From: an uncultured Latescibacterota bacterium
GTDB taxonomy: Bacteria > Latescibacterota > UBA2968
Direction of reading: 5' to 3'
Assembly: GCA_951812755.1 (NCBI GenBank)
Contig: OX638329.1
Span: 6,129,107-6,193,106, forward strand
Length of the DNA stretch: 64,000 nt
The position numbers were made by a program, and so were the translations under genes. How positions within the stretch are numbered: position 1 is the first letter of the stretch; each line of letters opens with the position of its first letter. Positions 15,737 through 21,384 of this stretch are shown here, one piece after another. The notes below the pieces were generated by a model. It was not told the DNA's origin and did not search any database. It was given only the letters and a program-made list of their open reading frames with translations.

Positions 15737-15785
15737 TGCGGCAAGAGTTGCCATAATACATTTATTTACAAGAGGATATATTCAA

Positions 15786-16133
15786 ATGAATATAGATGTT
15801 AAGTGGGTGCGGAAAGACGGTGTCTTGATTGTTGTGCTCAATGGTATTATCGACAGTAGCAGTGCCCCTCAATTGCAACGTGCCCTGGAATCTGGAATTG
15901 GTCCGGCAGATCAGGCATTGCTCCTGGACTTTGAGCAGGTATCTTTTCTCAGCAGTGCAGGGCTTGGGATCTTCCTGATATTTTCCAGGAAATTTGACGC
16001 ACCGGGCAAGCAATTTGGCGTTTGTGCCCTCTCTGATTCAGTCCGCAATGTTATCACCATCAGCGGTTTTGATAAGTTTCTCAAGGTTTATAACTCTCAG
16101 GCAGAGGCAGTCAATGCATTCACGAGCAGTTGA
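15786..16133 (+). CDS. STAS-domain protein (anti-sigma-factor antagonist type)
   Basis: 115 residues that are almost exactly one STAS domain. The N-terminal strand (VLIVVLNGIIDSSSAPQLQ) leads to the phosphorylation loop VSFLSSAGLGIFLIF near residues 55-69, which keeps the serine targeted by kinases in SpoIIAA/RsbV-type proteins. The ATG at 15786 follows a weak AAGAGGA site by about 9 nt. No serine kinase, phosphatase or sigma factor is adjacent. The next gene, 23 nt on, encodes an ankyrin protein, and the two may be co-transcribed. Such proteins relay signals by partner switching; the partner here is unknown. Confidence 0.88.
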   Translation: MNIDVKWVRKDGVLIVVLNGIIDSSSAPQLQRALESGIGPADQALLLDFEQVSFLSSAGLGIFLIFSRKFDAPGKQFGVCALSDSVRNVITISGFDKFLKVYNSQAEAVNAFTSS

Positions 16134-16156
16134 GCTACCGATAGGAGGATAGTGTT

Positions 16157-16879
16157 GTGTTTGATTATCGCGAATCCGATGTCAACGCACGGGACCCCGA
16201 TAGTGGTCGGACGCCGCTACACTTTGCGGTAGAGAATAGTGATTGTGAAGTGGTTGAGCAATTGCTTGACCGAGGTGCCGATGTCAATGTGCAGGAAAAA
16301 ACGGGCAATACGCCACTACACTTTGCGGCGATTAGTAATGCTTCTGAGGTGGTCGATCTATTGCTTGAGCGAGGTGCGTATGTCAACGCGCAGGACAATG
16401 GTGGCACGACGCCGCTACACAATGCGGCGATTGGTAATGCTTCTGAAGTAGTCGAGCAATTGCTTAAATGGAGTGCCGATGTCAATGTGCAGGACAGTGG
16501 TGGCACGACGCCGCTACACAATGCGGCGATTAGTAATGCTTCTGAAGTGGCCGAGTTATTACTGAATCGCGGTGCCGATGTCAATGTACGGGATGTGGTT
16601 GGCAATACGCCGCTACACAATGCGGCGAGTAATAATGCTTCTTCTGAAATAGCCGAGGTGTTGCTGGGCCATGATGCCGATGTCAATGTGCAGAATAATG
16701 ATGGCAATACGCCGCTGGATCTGGCGAGGCGAGGAGATGCTACTGAAACAGTAGAACTATTGATCAACCGGGGTGCTATCACTCCGGTGCAACCAAAAAT
16801 CCGTCGAGTTGGTGTGATTCTGAGCGTGATTATTCTCTTGTTTCTATGTTTTGTGATATTTGTTGTCGTCAGCCCATAG
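16157..16879 (+). CDS. Ankyrin-repeat protein with C-terminal membrane tail
   Basis: 240 residues from a GTG at 16157, with AGGAGG about 8 nt upstream. Six ankyrin units of about 33 residues are visible, each with the (G)xTPLHxAA core (GRTPLHFAVENS, GNTPLHFAAIS, GTTPLHNAAIG and so on) and a closing GADVN. One unit is a residue longer (NNASSEIAEVLL). A hydrophobic segment (VGVILSVIILLFLCFVIFVV) ends the protein, so it is probably tail-anchored with the repeats in the cytoplasm. Neighbouring units are very similar at DNA level, a sign of recent internal duplication. It may work with the STAS protein upstream; no enzymatic domain is present. Confidence 0.88.
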   Translation: MFDYRESDVNARDPDSGRTPLHFAVENSDCEVVEQLLDRGADVNVQEKTGNTPLHFAAISNASEVVDLLLERGAYVNAQDNGGTTPLHNAAIGNASEVVEQLLKWSADVNVQDSGGTTPLHNAAISNASEVAELLLNRGADVNVRDVVGNTPLHNAASNNASSEIAEVLLGHDADVNVQNNDGNTPLDLARRGDATETVELLINRGAITPVQPKIRRVGVILSVIILLFLCFVIFVVVSP

Positions 16880-17007
16880 CATATTGGTAAAAGAAAAAAA
16901 TATTTGAACTGTCGGTATTGAAAAACTGCCAAATGTGCTTTAATTGAAAAGAGTTTCCCATGTTTATGAATGTGGAATTGTAGTCAGTACTGTGGAGGTT
17001 TATAATA

Positions 17008-17463
17008 ATGAGACAGGCCGATATTGCGGTATATGATCCGGATGGACAACTTCAACTGGTCGTCGAAATCAAAAACAGACCTGGCGCGTCCGCCGAATGG
17101 GCCACCCGCCTGCGCCACAATTTATTGGTCCATTCGTTCATACCGCGTGCGCCATACTTCCTGCTCGCGCTCCCTGATTTTTTTTATTTATGGACAGAGG
17201 CTATGTCTGCGAGCAGTCTGGCAAAACCCGACTATAAAATAAACGCCACGAAAATACTGGCTCCATATCTTAACCAATTAACCCAGCCCCTTAATGGTCT
17301 AAGCGGGTATGGCTTCGAGATGATTATGACTTCGTGGCTGGCTGGCATTGTACATACAGACCTTCAAATAGATGAAGCTGGTCCAAATCTCCAATGGCTC
17401 TTTGACTCAGGATTATACGAAGCAATTTCACATGGTTCTGTTGCGATTGAAGCGACAGTATGA
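17008..17463 (+). CDS. Small PD-(D/E)XK nuclease-like protein
   Basis: 151 residues. The N-terminal half has the core signature of the restriction-endonuclease-like fold: ADIAVYDPDG (Asp near residue 4-10) followed by LQLVVEIKN (E-x-K near residues 21-23). The usual first helix is short or missing, so it may be a minimal or N-terminally shortened member. GGAGG lies about 10 nt before the ATG. The stop overlaps the ATG of a PIN-like remnant (ATGA at 17460-17463), so it was once coupled to a second nuclease-type gene, an arrangement reminiscent of toxin-antitoxin or defence pairs. Catalytic activity is uncertain. Confidence 0.6.
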   Translation: MRQADIAVYDPDGQLQLVVEIKNRPGASAEWATRLRHNLLVHSFIPRAPYFLLALPDFFYLWTEAMSASSLAKPDYKINATKILAPYLNQLTQPLNGLSGYGFEMIMTSWLAGIVHTDLQIDEAGPNLQWLFDSGLYEAISHGSVAIEATV

Positions 17464-17543
17464 TTGTGTACGTAGAATCAAATTTCGTCCTTGAATTGGC
17501 AAAGTTTACTGATGGTTTGGGGTATATTCGCAATCGATTGTAA
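17460..17543 (+). pseudogene. Remnant of a PIN-domain gene
   Basis: A 27-codon frame opens MIVYVESNFVLELA, the typical first strand of a PIN ribonuclease with its metal-binding acidic residue, then runs AKFTDGLGYIRNRL and stops. A working PIN domain needs about 120 residues, so most is missing. The second half could be the natural C-terminal tail joined to the N-terminus by an internal deletion; that is an inference. The ATG overlaps the stop of the PD-(D/E)XK-like gene. Confidence 0.5.
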
Positions 17544-17595
17544 AATGCAGCATTGGCGCAGACAGCCCACTGCGCTGATTTCCTATTTATATGAT

Positions 17596-17873
17596 AAAAG
17601 CCCCAACCAATGAGGAAGGGGCATTCGCATCAAGTTAAGCGTTAAAAGCCATATTCTGACCCGTTCCATTGCTCTGTCATTCTGAGCGGAGCGAAGCGGA
17701 GTCGAAGAATCTGCTGCCTGAGTGGTGTTTATGGGTAAAAGATGCTTCGTCAGCCTATCGGCTTCCTCAGCATGACAGCCTATCTGAGCGTGATATGTCG
17801 CTGACTATCTCTTGTTCACCTCTTAGCTTGATGTGTATACCCCAACCAATGAGGAAGGGGCTTTTGTTTTTTT
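17596..17873. repeat. Duplicated CCCCAACCAATGAGGAAGGGGC hairpin motif
   Basis: The segment (22 nt; CCCC and GGGG arms) occurs at 17600-17621 and again at 17840-17861. The second copy is followed by CTTTTGTTTTTTT, so it could stop plus-strand transcription; the first keeps the AAAAG left arm but lacks a T-run. They flank a MITE-like element. The rest of the 554-bp gap 17464-18017 holds only repeat elements; I see no gene. Confidence 0.5.
17675..17777. repeat. Dispersed palindromic element TGTCATTCTGAG...CTCAGCATGACA
   Basis: The ends are imperfect inverted repeats: TGTCATTCTGAGCGGAGCG at the left and CCTCAGCATGACA at the right, with GTCGAAGAATCT and AAAAGATGCTTCGTC inside. A related sequence forms the core of the element at 26756-26901. 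Elements of this style are scattered through many uncultured bacterial genomes. No coding capacity. Confidence 0.7.
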
Positions 17874-18014
17874 GACGTTACGCACAGGAACAATATAATG
17901 CACCTATTACTACGGGAGTAAAAGATGCTTCGTCAACCTGATGGGTGTTGGGCGCAGGTGATTCATTGCGCCCGCCTTAGCATGACAGAAACGCGAGACA
18001 TGCATAACATCAGT
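17871..18014. repeat. MITE-like element, diverged copy with TGACGTTACGCA ends
   Basis: The left end TGACGTTACGCACAGG matches the left end of the element at 26756-26901, and the right end TGCATAACATCAGT matches its right end with two changes. The middle contains AAAGATGCTTCGTC and CTTAGCATGACA, also shared. Length (144 bp) is close to that of the intact copy (146 bp). It sits right after the stop of the PIN-like cassette gene (18018), so it borders the cassette on its 3' side. Confidence 0.65.
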
Positions 18015-18017
18015 TTT

Positions 18018-18896
18018 TTATGGAACAGGAGGAGTTTGTCCGCCGGAATTTACAAAGGCCATTTCTGAGGGATACTTTTTGTGTTTTTTCTGTAGATACT
18101 CACAAAGATAATCAAAGGAATTATCTATATGCTCAAGCCTCATGGATTGTGGCATATCAATTGCAATCACACTATCTCCAACAGATCCACAAAAGTTACA
18201 GGTACAATTTTCCCCATTTTTATCTATGATTTCTTGGAGCCGTTGTCCAATTTTGTAAGCTGGATTAGACCTTCCTAAGGTCTGTGATTCGCTAATTATT
18301 TTATCTATTGAAGCTCTGTTGTTTTTGAGAAAATACGTATCAATTATACATTTTTTTCTACACGCCTCAGTGTCGCAAAACGATTCCTGAAAAGTTCTAA
18401 AGAAATTTCGCTGTTCGCTCAGATCAGATGAAAAGTGCAAAGGTACTATGCCACGCGCACACTTTGTTTTGTCACATTGAATCAATTTGAAATAGTTCTT
18501 AAACTTTACTTCGAGCCTCCAGATTGCATCCGCAAGAGCCCGCTGCCCCTTGGCTTTATTCGTTTGATGATTTAAATCAAATTCTTTTAGATTAAATATC
18601 ACGTTAATTATCTGTATGGCAGCTTTGAGATTTTGTGGCTCAAATTTATTACTCCAGACTTCAAAAGCTTCTCCGAGAGTCTGGATGTGGTTCATATCAA
18701 GAAGAAAGAAAAACGAAATCAGGTTATTTATAAGGCTTCGGCGAAATTCCATCACCACGTAGGATGAAACATTTGGCTTACGATCACCAAATTCTTTCTT
18801 AAACATTTCTTGATAAGTGGAAATGCCTAATACTCGAGTTCGCGCAACCGAGGTGTCTAAAAAAAGTTCAATTTTATCCTGTTTCTGTCCAGTCAT
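18018..18896 (-). CDS. Cys-rich PIN-like protein, last gene of a three-gene cassette
   Basis: About 292 residues. KIELFLDTSVAR at residues ~8-19 matches the first strand and metal-binding Asp of PIN ribonucleases. The C-terminal part GDSVIAIDMP...HIDNSFDYL resembles the family's closing D-x-x-IA and (T/D)-D-x-x-F signals. Between them lies a long insert with three Cys clusters: CDKTKC, CDTEACRKKC and CTCNFC. These suggest a zinc or Fe-S site, unusual for PIN domains. The chosen ATG (18894-18896) lies 23 nt inside the previous gene; a TTG at 18908 in the same frame is the alternative. DNA is clearly more AT-rich than the flanking genes. The PIN assignment is by eye and moderate. Confidence 0.55.
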   Translation of the reverse strand: MTGQKQDKIELFLDTSVARTRVLGISTYQEMFKKEFGDRKPNVSSYVVMEFRRSLINNLISFFFLLDMNHIQTLGEAFEVWSNKFEPQNLKAAIQIINVIFNLKEFDLNHQTNKAKGQRALADAIWRLEVKFKNYFKLIQCDKTKCARGIVPLHFSSDLSEQRNFFRTFQESFCDTEACRKKCIIDTYFLKNNRASIDKIISESQTLGRSNPAYKIGQRLQEIIDKNGENCTCNFCGSVGDSVIAIDMPQSMRLEHIDNSFDYLCEYLQKKHKKYPSEMAFVNSGGQTPPVP

Positions 18897-19527
18897 CCAT
18901 AATTCCAAAAGGCGTTGTGTTTAATCCTAAATCTTCTAAAGCAATTACACCTTCCTCAACCGACTTTAATACAATTCTTTGCTTACGCGAAATTTTAGCG
19001 ATAATTTCCCAGATACCTGCATATTGTTCAGGTGTACAGCTTGCCCACATATCGTCAAACACCAGTGAGTCGTGGAGGGAACTAAATAATAGTCGCAGGG
19101 GATCAGCATCTCCAAATTGGTCATAATCTCTTAATTTTTTAATGACTTCTGATGCTGGACCCGCAACTTGTGGAGTTTCGGCTCTATCTTTCAACTTCTG
19201 TAGAAGTTCTAAAAGCTCATTGCAAAAGTGAACCCTTATTATTTTAGTATAATCTCGGCTATGTCCTTCAGAAATCTGAGAACCGTCTTCTCTGTTACGC
19301 TGTCTCGCGGCTATACTTAAAGTATTTGTTCCGTTGTCCGTAAATTCCTTGCTGTCAGCAATAATGTCTTTTTGTGGAGTAATATTCTGATCTGGCACCA
19401 CATAATTTTCGATGGTCAGCCGATGGGGGACCGAAAAATCTTTGGGTGGCTGATGGGAGGTAGTAGAATCTTCTAAAGTCGGTGTATGGACAGTCTCGTT
19501 CGTCTCCAAGTGATCAGTTGACATCAT
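18874..19527 (-). CDS. Unknown middle protein of the three-gene cassette
   Basis: 217 residues, no family recognised. The first ~85 residues are polar and probably disordered (many Thr, Ser, Asn and Gln). The rest is helical, with NELLELLQKLKDRAE near residue 100 and LFSSLHDSLVFDDMWA near 145. A further stretch, EQYAGIWEIIAKISRKQR, lies near 168. There are no signal or membrane segments and no clear helix-turn-helix. Its ATG overlaps the stop of the gene before it (ATGA), and its own end overlaps the PIN-like gene, so all three are translationally linked. By position it could be an antitoxin or adaptor for the PIN-like protein; this is inference only. Confidence 0.6.
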   Translation of the reverse strand: MMSTDHLETNETVHTPTLEDSTTSHQPPKDFSVPHRLTIENYVVPDQNITPQKDIIADSKEFTDNGTNTLSIAARQRNREDGSQISEGHSRDYTKIIRVHFCNELLELLQKLKDRAETPQVAGPASEVIKKLRDYDQFGDADPLRLLFSSLHDSLVFDDMWASCTPEQYAGIWEIIAKISRKQRIVLKSVEEGVIALEDLGLNTTPFGIMDDWTETG

Positions 19528-20267
19528 GTTGTTATCTCCGATTTGAGTAAATAATCGGCGAGCAAATCTATCCAGGACTCAGCTCTGTCCTTGAGCTTTA
19601 AAACTGTATCTTGGCATTTTGATATTGGAGATTCGCCTTCCTGATAAACATCAATATCCACAAATATAGCTACTCCGGGATAGCCAGAATAAATTTCAGG
19701 CAGTGGGTTCTCACTATTAGGGTCAATATGCTGACCTTCGTTAAATTCAATTCTATGGGGAATTTCGGTTTGATCTACGGGCCCTACAGTGAGATGAGCA
19801 TCGAATTCTCCATCAATTAAGTCAACTCGATACATCATATCTTTGACTTCGGGAAACCCTGCAAGGTTTCTTAAAGGATCAGAATACACCTTGAGATTCA
19901 TCAAAGAATTAAGCTCCGCAAAGGACATGCTCACAGGGATTAGGTATCGGCGTCTATATCCTATTCGAGTAGATTCGACTAAATCCAGTTCTGGAGGTAA
20001 AATACCGATAATGTGGTTGATATTCCTTGTCTCCAAATTTTCATTACTCGAGTCTTGTTCATACGTAAAGGTGTTATGACGTATGGCTATACTACAGTAC
20101 TCATTGTAGTCTTTCAGTGTCACATGGAACCGGTCTGTGCTCCAATCAGGAAAATTTTTTATTTTTGCTGCAGCTCCATATAACAGATTATAAAAAGTCA
20201 GTTCTGGTTTATATCTGACCTGCATAATCACTTTGTAAAGATTTTTTTCGTAATTTCTAACATTCAT
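19524..20267 (-). CDS. First cassette protein, possibly TIGR04255-like
   Basis: 247 residues with no signal peptide. It opens MNVRNYEKNLYKVIMQVRYKPEL and has mixed strand and helix pattern, including STRIGYRRRYLIPVSM near residue 105 and a C-terminal helix (KCQDTVLKLKDRAESWIDLL). Overall it resembles the sporadically distributed TIGR04255 proteins, whose function is unknown, but I hold that match loosely. It is the promoter-proximal gene: a sigma-70-type promoter and an 11-bp palindrome lie just upstream. It couples to the middle gene through ATGA. Base composition is AT-rich, unlike the SDR gene upstream, consistent with acquisition by transfer. Confidence 0.55.
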   Translation of the reverse strand: MNVRNYEKNLYKVIMQVRYKPELTFYNLLYGAAAKIKNFPDWSTDRFHVTLKDYNEYCSIAIRHNTFTYEQDSSNENLETRNINHIIGILPPELDLVESTRIGYRRRYLIPVSMSFAELNSLMNLKVYSDPLRNLAGFPEVKDMMYRVDLIDGEFDAHLTVGPVDQTEIPHRIEFNEGQHIDPNSENPLPEIYSGYPGVAIFVDIDVYQEGESPISKCQDTVLKLKDRAESWIDLLADYLLKSEITT

Positions 20268-20278
20268 TGCCTATTTCC

Positions 20279-20319
20279 ATATAGATGCGAAAAATAAGAA
20301 GTTTTTGCCGCATCTATAT
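20279..20319. promoter_or_regulatory. Perfect 11-bp palindrome at the cassette promoter, operator candidate
   Basis: ATATAGATGCG (20279-20289) and CGCATCTATAT (20309-20319) are exact inverted repeats, with AAAAA and TTTTT inside extending the stem around a 2-nt bulge. It begins 12 nt before the first ATG of the cassette and its distal arm overlaps the -10 region. Such placement is typical of self-regulated toxin-antitoxin operons; alternatively the transcript could form a hairpin that blocks the first ribosome site. Confidence 0.6.
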
Positions 20320-20344
20320 TATATTTGGGGTATATGGAAGTCAA
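20316..20344 (-). promoter_or_regulatory. Sigma-70-type promoter of the three-gene cassette
   Basis: On the minus strand TTGACT (20344-20339) is followed after 15 nt by a perfect TATAAT (20323-20318), or after 17 nt by TAATAT. The -10 overlaps the outer arm of the palindrome. This gives the cassette its own start, separate from the SDR gene upstream on the same strand. Confidence 0.6.
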
Positions 20345-20380
20345 GACATTTTGACCGTATTCAAAAGCGTTCACTTGCAA

Positions 20381-21154: not shown

Positions 21155-21190
21155 GATTTCTCCTTGGAAAGGCTCCTGCGCTATAGAGCC

Positions 21191-21275
21191 GTCATCGCGG
21201 CCCCTGCTTAAATCATGCAGGGGCAGGCTCCCGTCTGTCATCGCGGCATGGTGTTAGCCGCGATCCAGAGGTGTT
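21191..21275. repeat. REP-like palindrome, copy 2, with a degenerate neighbour
   Basis: 21237-21275 reads GTCATCGCGGCATGG, then TGTTA and GCCGCGATCCAGAGG, the dispersed element. Immediately before it, 21191-21225 has GTCATCGCGGCCCCTGC with a matching GCAGGGGC arm, a variant with a different loop. A CATCTGCGTTCATCTGCG run follows near 21289-21307. Together these fill the gap between the SDR and aminotransferase genes. Confidence 0.75.
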
Positions 21276-21384
21276 GCCTTTTGCCTTTCATCTGCGTTCA
21301 TCTGCGAAAAACGCTCGAATGAACGGGCCTGAGAGGCGGCCATTTGTACACCGCTCACTCGCGTTTTTTTCTGCGGATGCTTTT

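Follow-up and report, generated by a model that had tools for sequence, protein, structure and literature searches.

A mobile three-gene cassette as a candidate toxin-antitoxin module with a Cys-rich PIN-like protein and a divergent TIGR04255-type protein

What a compact, AT-rich block of three genes encodes, and how it came to lie where it does, is the question raised by the locus analysed here. The window, meaning the whole 64-kb stretch of DNA under analysis, corresponds to positions 6,129,107-6,193,106 of a 6.53 Mb host genome present as a single contig and belonging to a small phylum. Three minus-strand ORFs, each overlapping its neighbour, were found in the order g1-g2-g3, with a 4-bp overlap (ATGA) between g1 and g2 and a 23-bp overlap between g2 and g3 (Table 1). 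The G+C content of the cassette is 38.6% vs 51.4% outside it, and none of the 2,250-bp stretches sampled from the window is as low. Three AT-rich overlapping genes with a composition unlike that of their neighbours, as described in the original prediction, were thus confirmed by the ORF coordinates and the G+C content. Searches of Pfam, NCBIfam, PADLOC, PHROGs and PDB sequences with g1, g2 and g3 gave nothing usable, no model of PADLOC-DB 2.0 matched g1 or g2, and scanning genome and viral contigs with one protein at a time revealed no relatives of the cassette proteins; no relatives were found when viral contigs were scanned with the g3 alignment. A PADLOC match of g3 to AbiTi (25 residues, E 0.0026) was set aside as too short.

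Table 1. Positions of the cassette genes, predicted motifs and surrounding features within the window
Feature	Positions	Strand	Description
g1	20267..19524	minus	247 aa; divergent TIGR04255-type protein, candidate regulator/sensor/adaptor
g2	19527..18874	minus	217 aa, pI 4.8; candidate antitoxin
g3	18896..18018	minus	292 aa from ATG 18896, pI 8.75; candidate PIN-like RNase toxin with Cys-rich insert
D14 codon (FLDTSV motif)	18855..18857	minus	first predicted PIN acidic residue
E50 codon (S-Y-V-x-M-E)	18747..18749	minus	second predicted PIN acidic residue
GD-x-VIA ... E-H-x-D-N-S-F motif	18123..18176	minus	D241 and D258, third and fourth predicted acidic residues
Cys-rich insert (C146, C179, C183, C231, C233, C236)	18189..18461	minus	from alignment; metal binding inferred
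Inverted repeat	20279..20319		operator or leader-hairpin candidate; overlaps -10 region, ends 11 bp before g1 start codon
Promoter-like TTGACT-17-TAATAT	20316..20344	minus	promoter scan, 9 of 12; weak, near chance rate
Variable cargo spot	15741..20378	no strand	15740 abuts 20379 directly in two congeners; other genes elsewhere

The flanks of the variable spot are joined directly, with the cassette wholly missing, in two congeners (L116 and L119), and a STAS/ankyrin segment or a different segment is held there in L117, L118 and L120. As the spot is variable and is empty in two congeners, the cassette is best read as an acquired element, and its description as self-contained was supported in the sense of a mobile unit. 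g3 was absent from all 63 other genomes of the host phylum searched, and no convincing g1 was found in these 63 genomes. The surroundings of the cassette in the window hold no evident defence island. Neighbouring variable segments with STAS/ankyrin genes (window 15741-17500), within which a possible nuclease-fold gene lies at 17008-17463, come and go independently in congeners at the same spot, and a short dispersed repeat at window 21180-21350 recurs dozens of times in the host genome and in congeners.

Relatives of g3 were detected in cyanobacteria, where they are 33-38% identical to it. By tblastn against plasmids, they were found on six Nostocales plasmid records and as a remnant on a seventh, with 36-38% identity over most of the length. 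Upstream of each intact relative whose neighbour on that side is complete lies a gene of 136 aa with homology to the C-terminal half of g2. Many of the pair loci on Nostocales plasmids lie beside parA/parB or integrases. An intact PIN-like gene is carried by 12 of 391 genomes of one cyanobacterial order, with a g2-type gene directly upstream in 12 of 12, and three more divergent intact pairs were found in the wider cyanobacterial class; a scan of 84,980 species, of limited sensitivity, gave 17 loci with g3 relatives. The g2-g3 order with tight spacing was observed at at least 26 distinct cyanobacterial loci (23 with both genes intact and the three divergent ones), where gaps of a few bases take the place of the overlap in the window. 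g2-g3 is an old pair. Its geometry, with adjacent and co-oriented genes and the g2-type gene first, is that of a type II toxin-antitoxin system, and the two proteins of the window are oppositely charged (Table 1).

The conserved part of g2 (residues about 96-217) is homologous to the gene of 126-167 aa upstream of the cyanobacterial PIN-like gene, and residues 1-95 form an extra low-complexity N-terminus, present only where g1 is, which suggests that g1 may interact with this N-terminus. Originally called an unknown helical protein, the middle protein better fits the description of a candidate antitoxin whose conserved domain is C-terminal. Divergent g2 relatives (L214 and L215) start with a DUF2281-like segment at sub-threshold E values of 0.0024 and 0.018, and g2 itself gave no match to PF10047 (DUF2281) in the Pfam search. 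The divergent pair of L215 (134-3782) is located between a probable type IIG restriction-modification gene, a VapBC-like pair and a possible endonuclease, all assigned by eye, and thus in what appears to be a defence/toxin-antitoxin island. Relatives of g1 were missing from the cyanobacterial g2-g3 loci, which consist of two genes only, and from plasmids. None of the other genomes searched showed the recurrence of the three-gene order that the original prediction had offered as a check: the exact trio occurs only here among about 840 genomes searched for g3 relatives and in the 84,980-species scan with its limited sensitivity.

Loss of the pair was observed to be one-sided. Among distinct cyanobacterial loci, 23 hold both genes intact, 14 keep the g2-type gene intact while their PIN gene is missing, cut short or has an internal deletion, and none holds an intact PIN gene without a g2-type partner (L006 being cut by the record start). 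The sole copy that keeps most of the PIN gene without a partner, L024, has lost the FLDTSV motif. At least nine distinct lesions of the PIN gene were recognized (L007, L009, L025, L026, L027, L066, L068, L082 and a class leaving residues 260-281). With a PIN gene twice as long as its partner, the probability that nine of nine independent lesions fall in it by chance is about 0.03 (0.675^9). The median dN/dS of orphan g2-type genes is 0.26 vs 0.25 for paired ones; the orphans are therefore kept under purifying selection. Such losses, together with kept orphans, are as expected for a toxin and its antitoxin and are hard to explain for unrelated genes, and the loss pattern strongly suggests that g2 is the antitoxin. 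On a Nostoc plasmid (L009:4965-7400), an orphan g2-type gene is immediately followed by a CBASS cyclase and effector and adjoins a type I restriction system. Of the three-component toxin-antitoxin or defence system originally proposed, the toxin-antitoxin-like pairing of g2 and g3 with its one-sided loss was retained, but the exact trio did not recur.

The last gene was originally read as a PIN ribonuclease with a Cys-rich insert. D14, E50, D241 and D258 are invariant across 21 aligned g3 proteins, and so are seven cysteines (C146, C179, C183, C231, C233, C236 and C265), the seventh of which lies beyond the last acidic motif. The motif series LDTS-V ... S-x-Y-x-x-x-E ... GD-x-VIA ... H-x-D-x-S-F follows the PIN motif order, the acidic residues stand in the D...E...D...D order required for a PIN domain (PF01850 and relatives), and the distance of 17 residues from D241 to D258 is near the spacing in the VapC proteins used for profile comparison. 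The reading thus held for the motif pattern and the invariant acidic residues and cysteines, but the comparison of profiles was not significant: hhalign of g3 against 25 VapC proteins did not score above shuffles, and likewise when g3 was taken in halves or with the insert removed. Neither g3 nor any of its relatives matched a Pfam family, PIN included, and g3 gave no NCBIfam match either. Structure prediction, also proposed as a check, yielded an AlphaFold model with pLDDT 42.6 from an alignment too shallow and with too little diversity, and the PIN fold was not confirmed.

For the first gene, thought to belong to a sporadic family, the evidence points to TIGR04255. g1 agrees with 13 phage/prophage TIGR04255 proteins at each of the six columns that never vary among them (P40, R101, G103, R105, D204 and D206), and the landmark segments of the family, namely the N-terminal strand, R-x-G-x-R and D-x-D, occur in order. 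With a profile of known TIGR04255 members, g1 ranks above about 612 non-family ORFs and reversed decoys, but with an E value of 0.021; hhalign of g1 against TIGR04255 scored 26.6 vs 20.4 for the best of 100 shuffles. No match to TIGR04255.1 itself was obtained, g1 being below the curated cut-off of 30 bits. The invariant columns, the profile rank and the hhalign score support the assignment, and g1 is probably a divergent TIGR04255 protein. A model of g1 built with viral TIGR04255 relatives reached pLDDT 62 and pTM 0.63, and the nearest solved structures to it are TATA-binding proteins (E about 2e-3, TM 0.3-0.47). Because this fit is loose, the likeness of the model is taken as a hint of nucleic-acid binding. 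A literature search found no mention of TIGR04255 and no described function for the family.

In host relatives, cyanobacteria, plasmids and prophages, TIGR04255 genes are usually followed by one or two genes on the same strand. Two- and three-gene cassettes led by TIGR04255 (L109-L115, L122, L124-L153 and L184-L212) hold very different third genes. The TIGR04255 gene overlaps the second gene by ATGA in 13 of the 31 cyanobacterial cassettes with a second gene found, the same arrangement as in g1-g2. The second genes have a low-complexity start and a variable rest, with a helix-turn-helix in several prophage loci. The third gene belongs in most cassettes to a family named 'CD' here (Q-G and C-D motifs), is a HEPN gene in L149 (PF05168, E 4e-8) and encodes a PtuB-like HNH protein in the prophage cassette L187 (E 5e-21); no other TIGR04255 cassette seen has second and third genes of the g2/g3 type. 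The host has a second, bona fide TIGR04255 cassette with a 'CD' third gene about 66 kb away (L113:5465-7130, about 6,215,500). An E. coli cassette of TIGR04255, XRE and hypothetical genes (L213:7022-9371) is present in a version of 90-95% DNA identity in 18 of 5,426 complete genomes, and the one copy examined is part of a P2-like prophage, where it sits between the replication and portal genes. This position in P2-like prophages is a hotspot holding defence systems (PMC9122126).

Taken as a group, the TIGR04255 cassettes look like an undescribed modular system. It is possible, at somewhat under an even chance, that a large class of modular conflict systems has gone unrecognised, each made of three genes with TIGR04255 as the constant part and an exchangeable effector, and that the window cassette is a divergent example of this class. 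The effectors of such a class would be PIN-like, HEPN, PtuB-like HNH and 'CD' proteins, and its carriers chromosomes, plasmids and prophages. TIGR04255 would then possibly be a nucleic-acid binder resembling TATA-binding proteins, as the model of g1 hints, and the window cassette would have recruited an antitoxin/PIN pair of cyanobacterial type.

An exact 11-bp palindrome and a TTGACT/TATAAT promoter had been described upstream of g1. Exact 11-bp arms were found (ATATAGATGCG at 20309-20319 and CGCATCTATAT at 20279-20289), but they stand 19 bp apart and form an inverted repeat, not a continuous palindrome. The repeat extends to 16-bp arms that are 88% complementary with 9 bp between them, its RNA folding gave z = -3.0, and just four sites with exact 11-bp arms and a gap of up to 40 occur in the 64 kb. 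Both promoter elements are present, but the promoter is weaker than described: their spacer is 15 bp, the scan prefers the alternative of Table 1, and 10 promoter-like matches were observed in the region vs 6.9 +/- 2.8 expected, which is near chance. The repeat is not general in the promoters of the cyanobacterial modules. In 1 of 43 upstream regions, that of a Calothrix antitoxin (L017:7480-7566), 14 bp (TTTTCGCATCTATA) are in common with the window repeat, and this promoter also has a TAGATG/CATCTA repeat of its own. An operator common to the window and the cyanobacterial modules was dropped and is not claimed, because the match was found in one locus only.

On balance, the cassette is probably a toxin-antitoxin or abortive-infection module gained by horizontal transfer, in which a TIGR04255-type protein would act as regulator or sensor. 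g3 would be a PIN-like ribonuclease toxin, the core of which holds an inserted, probably metal-binding Cys-rich segment. g2 would be an acidic antitoxin that neutralises g3 by binding it through the C-terminal domain, as the shorter version would do in cyanobacterial plasmids. The target bound by g1 would be the repeat at the promoter, the N-terminal extension of g2 or both, and g1 may make release of the toxin conditional on a trigger such as phage infection.

Other explanations were weighed against this module. As the trio is unique to the host genome, g1 might be a passenger, co-transcribed with but unrelated to a plain two-gene type II toxin-antitoxin system g2-g3 that maintains mobile DNA. 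The cyanobacterial loci, all of two genes without a g1 relative, and their plasmid setting next to partition genes agree with such a system, but the ATGA overlap of g1 and g2 that recurs in other TIGR04255 cassettes, the 95-residue extension of g2 only where g1 is present and the inverted repeat in front of g1 speak against it, and we regard it as unlikely. It is a doubtful proposal, and quite an unlikely one, that the cassette is a dedicated TIGR04255-type anti-phage system in which g1 senses, g2 links and g3 is the nuclease effector, with no toxin-antitoxin behaviour normally. Other TIGR04255 cassettes do swap their third genes, including for defence-type nucleases, and one occupies the P2 defence hotspot; against this stand the cyanobacterial g2-g3 pairs without g1, the one-sided loss that fits a toxin and antitoxin, the position of the cassette outside any evident defence island, and the PADLOC results, with no model for g1 or g2 and for g3 only the weak, short AbiTi match.

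The fold of g3 itself may be questioned. g3 might be a metal-binding, Cys-rich protein that folds differently, its likeness to PIN motifs having arisen by chance, and the seven invariant cysteines, the lack of a PIN profile match and the failed AlphaFold model are consistent with this; the invariance of D14 (LDTS-V), E50 (S-x-Y-x-x-x-E), D241 after its G and D258, in PIN order and spacing, renders it rather improbable. A chaperone-addicted toxin-antitoxin system of the SecB-like TAC type, with g1 as the chaperone needed by the extra N-terminus of g2, is very improbable. The window cassette resembles TAC systems in its three components and in an antitoxin with an extra tail, found in g2 only together with g1. 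The TAC family keeps the order toxin-antitoxin-chaperone, and the gene order of the cassette is the reverse of it. The predicted fold of g1 appears to differ as well: the case for g1 as a SecB-like chaperone weakened when its low-confidence model was compared with solved structures, since the model matched TATA-binding proteins and the 50 best PDB matches listed included no SecB.

Among known systems, the closest to the preferred toxin-antitoxin module are VapBC type II systems with DUF2281 antitoxins in Synechocystis and marine bacteria (PMC4963859, PMC12654330). The antitoxins listed for PIN toxins of Synechocystis include DUF2281 proteins (PMC4963859), and in E. coli a VapC/DUF2281 pair was shown to act as a toxin with its antitoxin (PMC12654330). 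The g2-g3 pair is like these systems in the g2-type gene upstream of and close to the PIN-like gene, the acidic candidate antitoxin, the plasmid or island setting and the DUF2281-like segment, matched below the cut-off, with which divergent g2 relatives begin. Unlike VapC of about 130 aa, proteins of the g3 family have 280-300 aa, an insert of about 160 residues with conserved cysteines and no Pfam PIN match; g2 differs from the DUF2281 antitoxins in carrying a further conserved domain, and a third gene, g1, precedes the pair in the window. The cassette is like those of sporadTIGR04255 (TIGR04255.1) in the invariant positions of g1 and in the ATGA-linked three-gene layout, but g1, unlike members of the family, scores below its cut-off. 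The PtuB HNH protein of Septu and retron systems has its likeness in the third gene of L187, not in the window cassette, and L187, unlike those systems, is without a PtuA ATPase or a reverse transcriptase.

The cassette would add a candidate toxin-antitoxin family, as yet unnamed, with a Cys-rich PIN-like toxin, for which the natural cases of toxin loss are ready-made tests. It also ties the uncharacterised family TIGR04255 to cassettes of three genes in which the third, nuclease-like one is swappable, and with one of these cassettes in a proven E. coli prophage defence hotspot the function of the family becomes directly testable in a laboratory strain.
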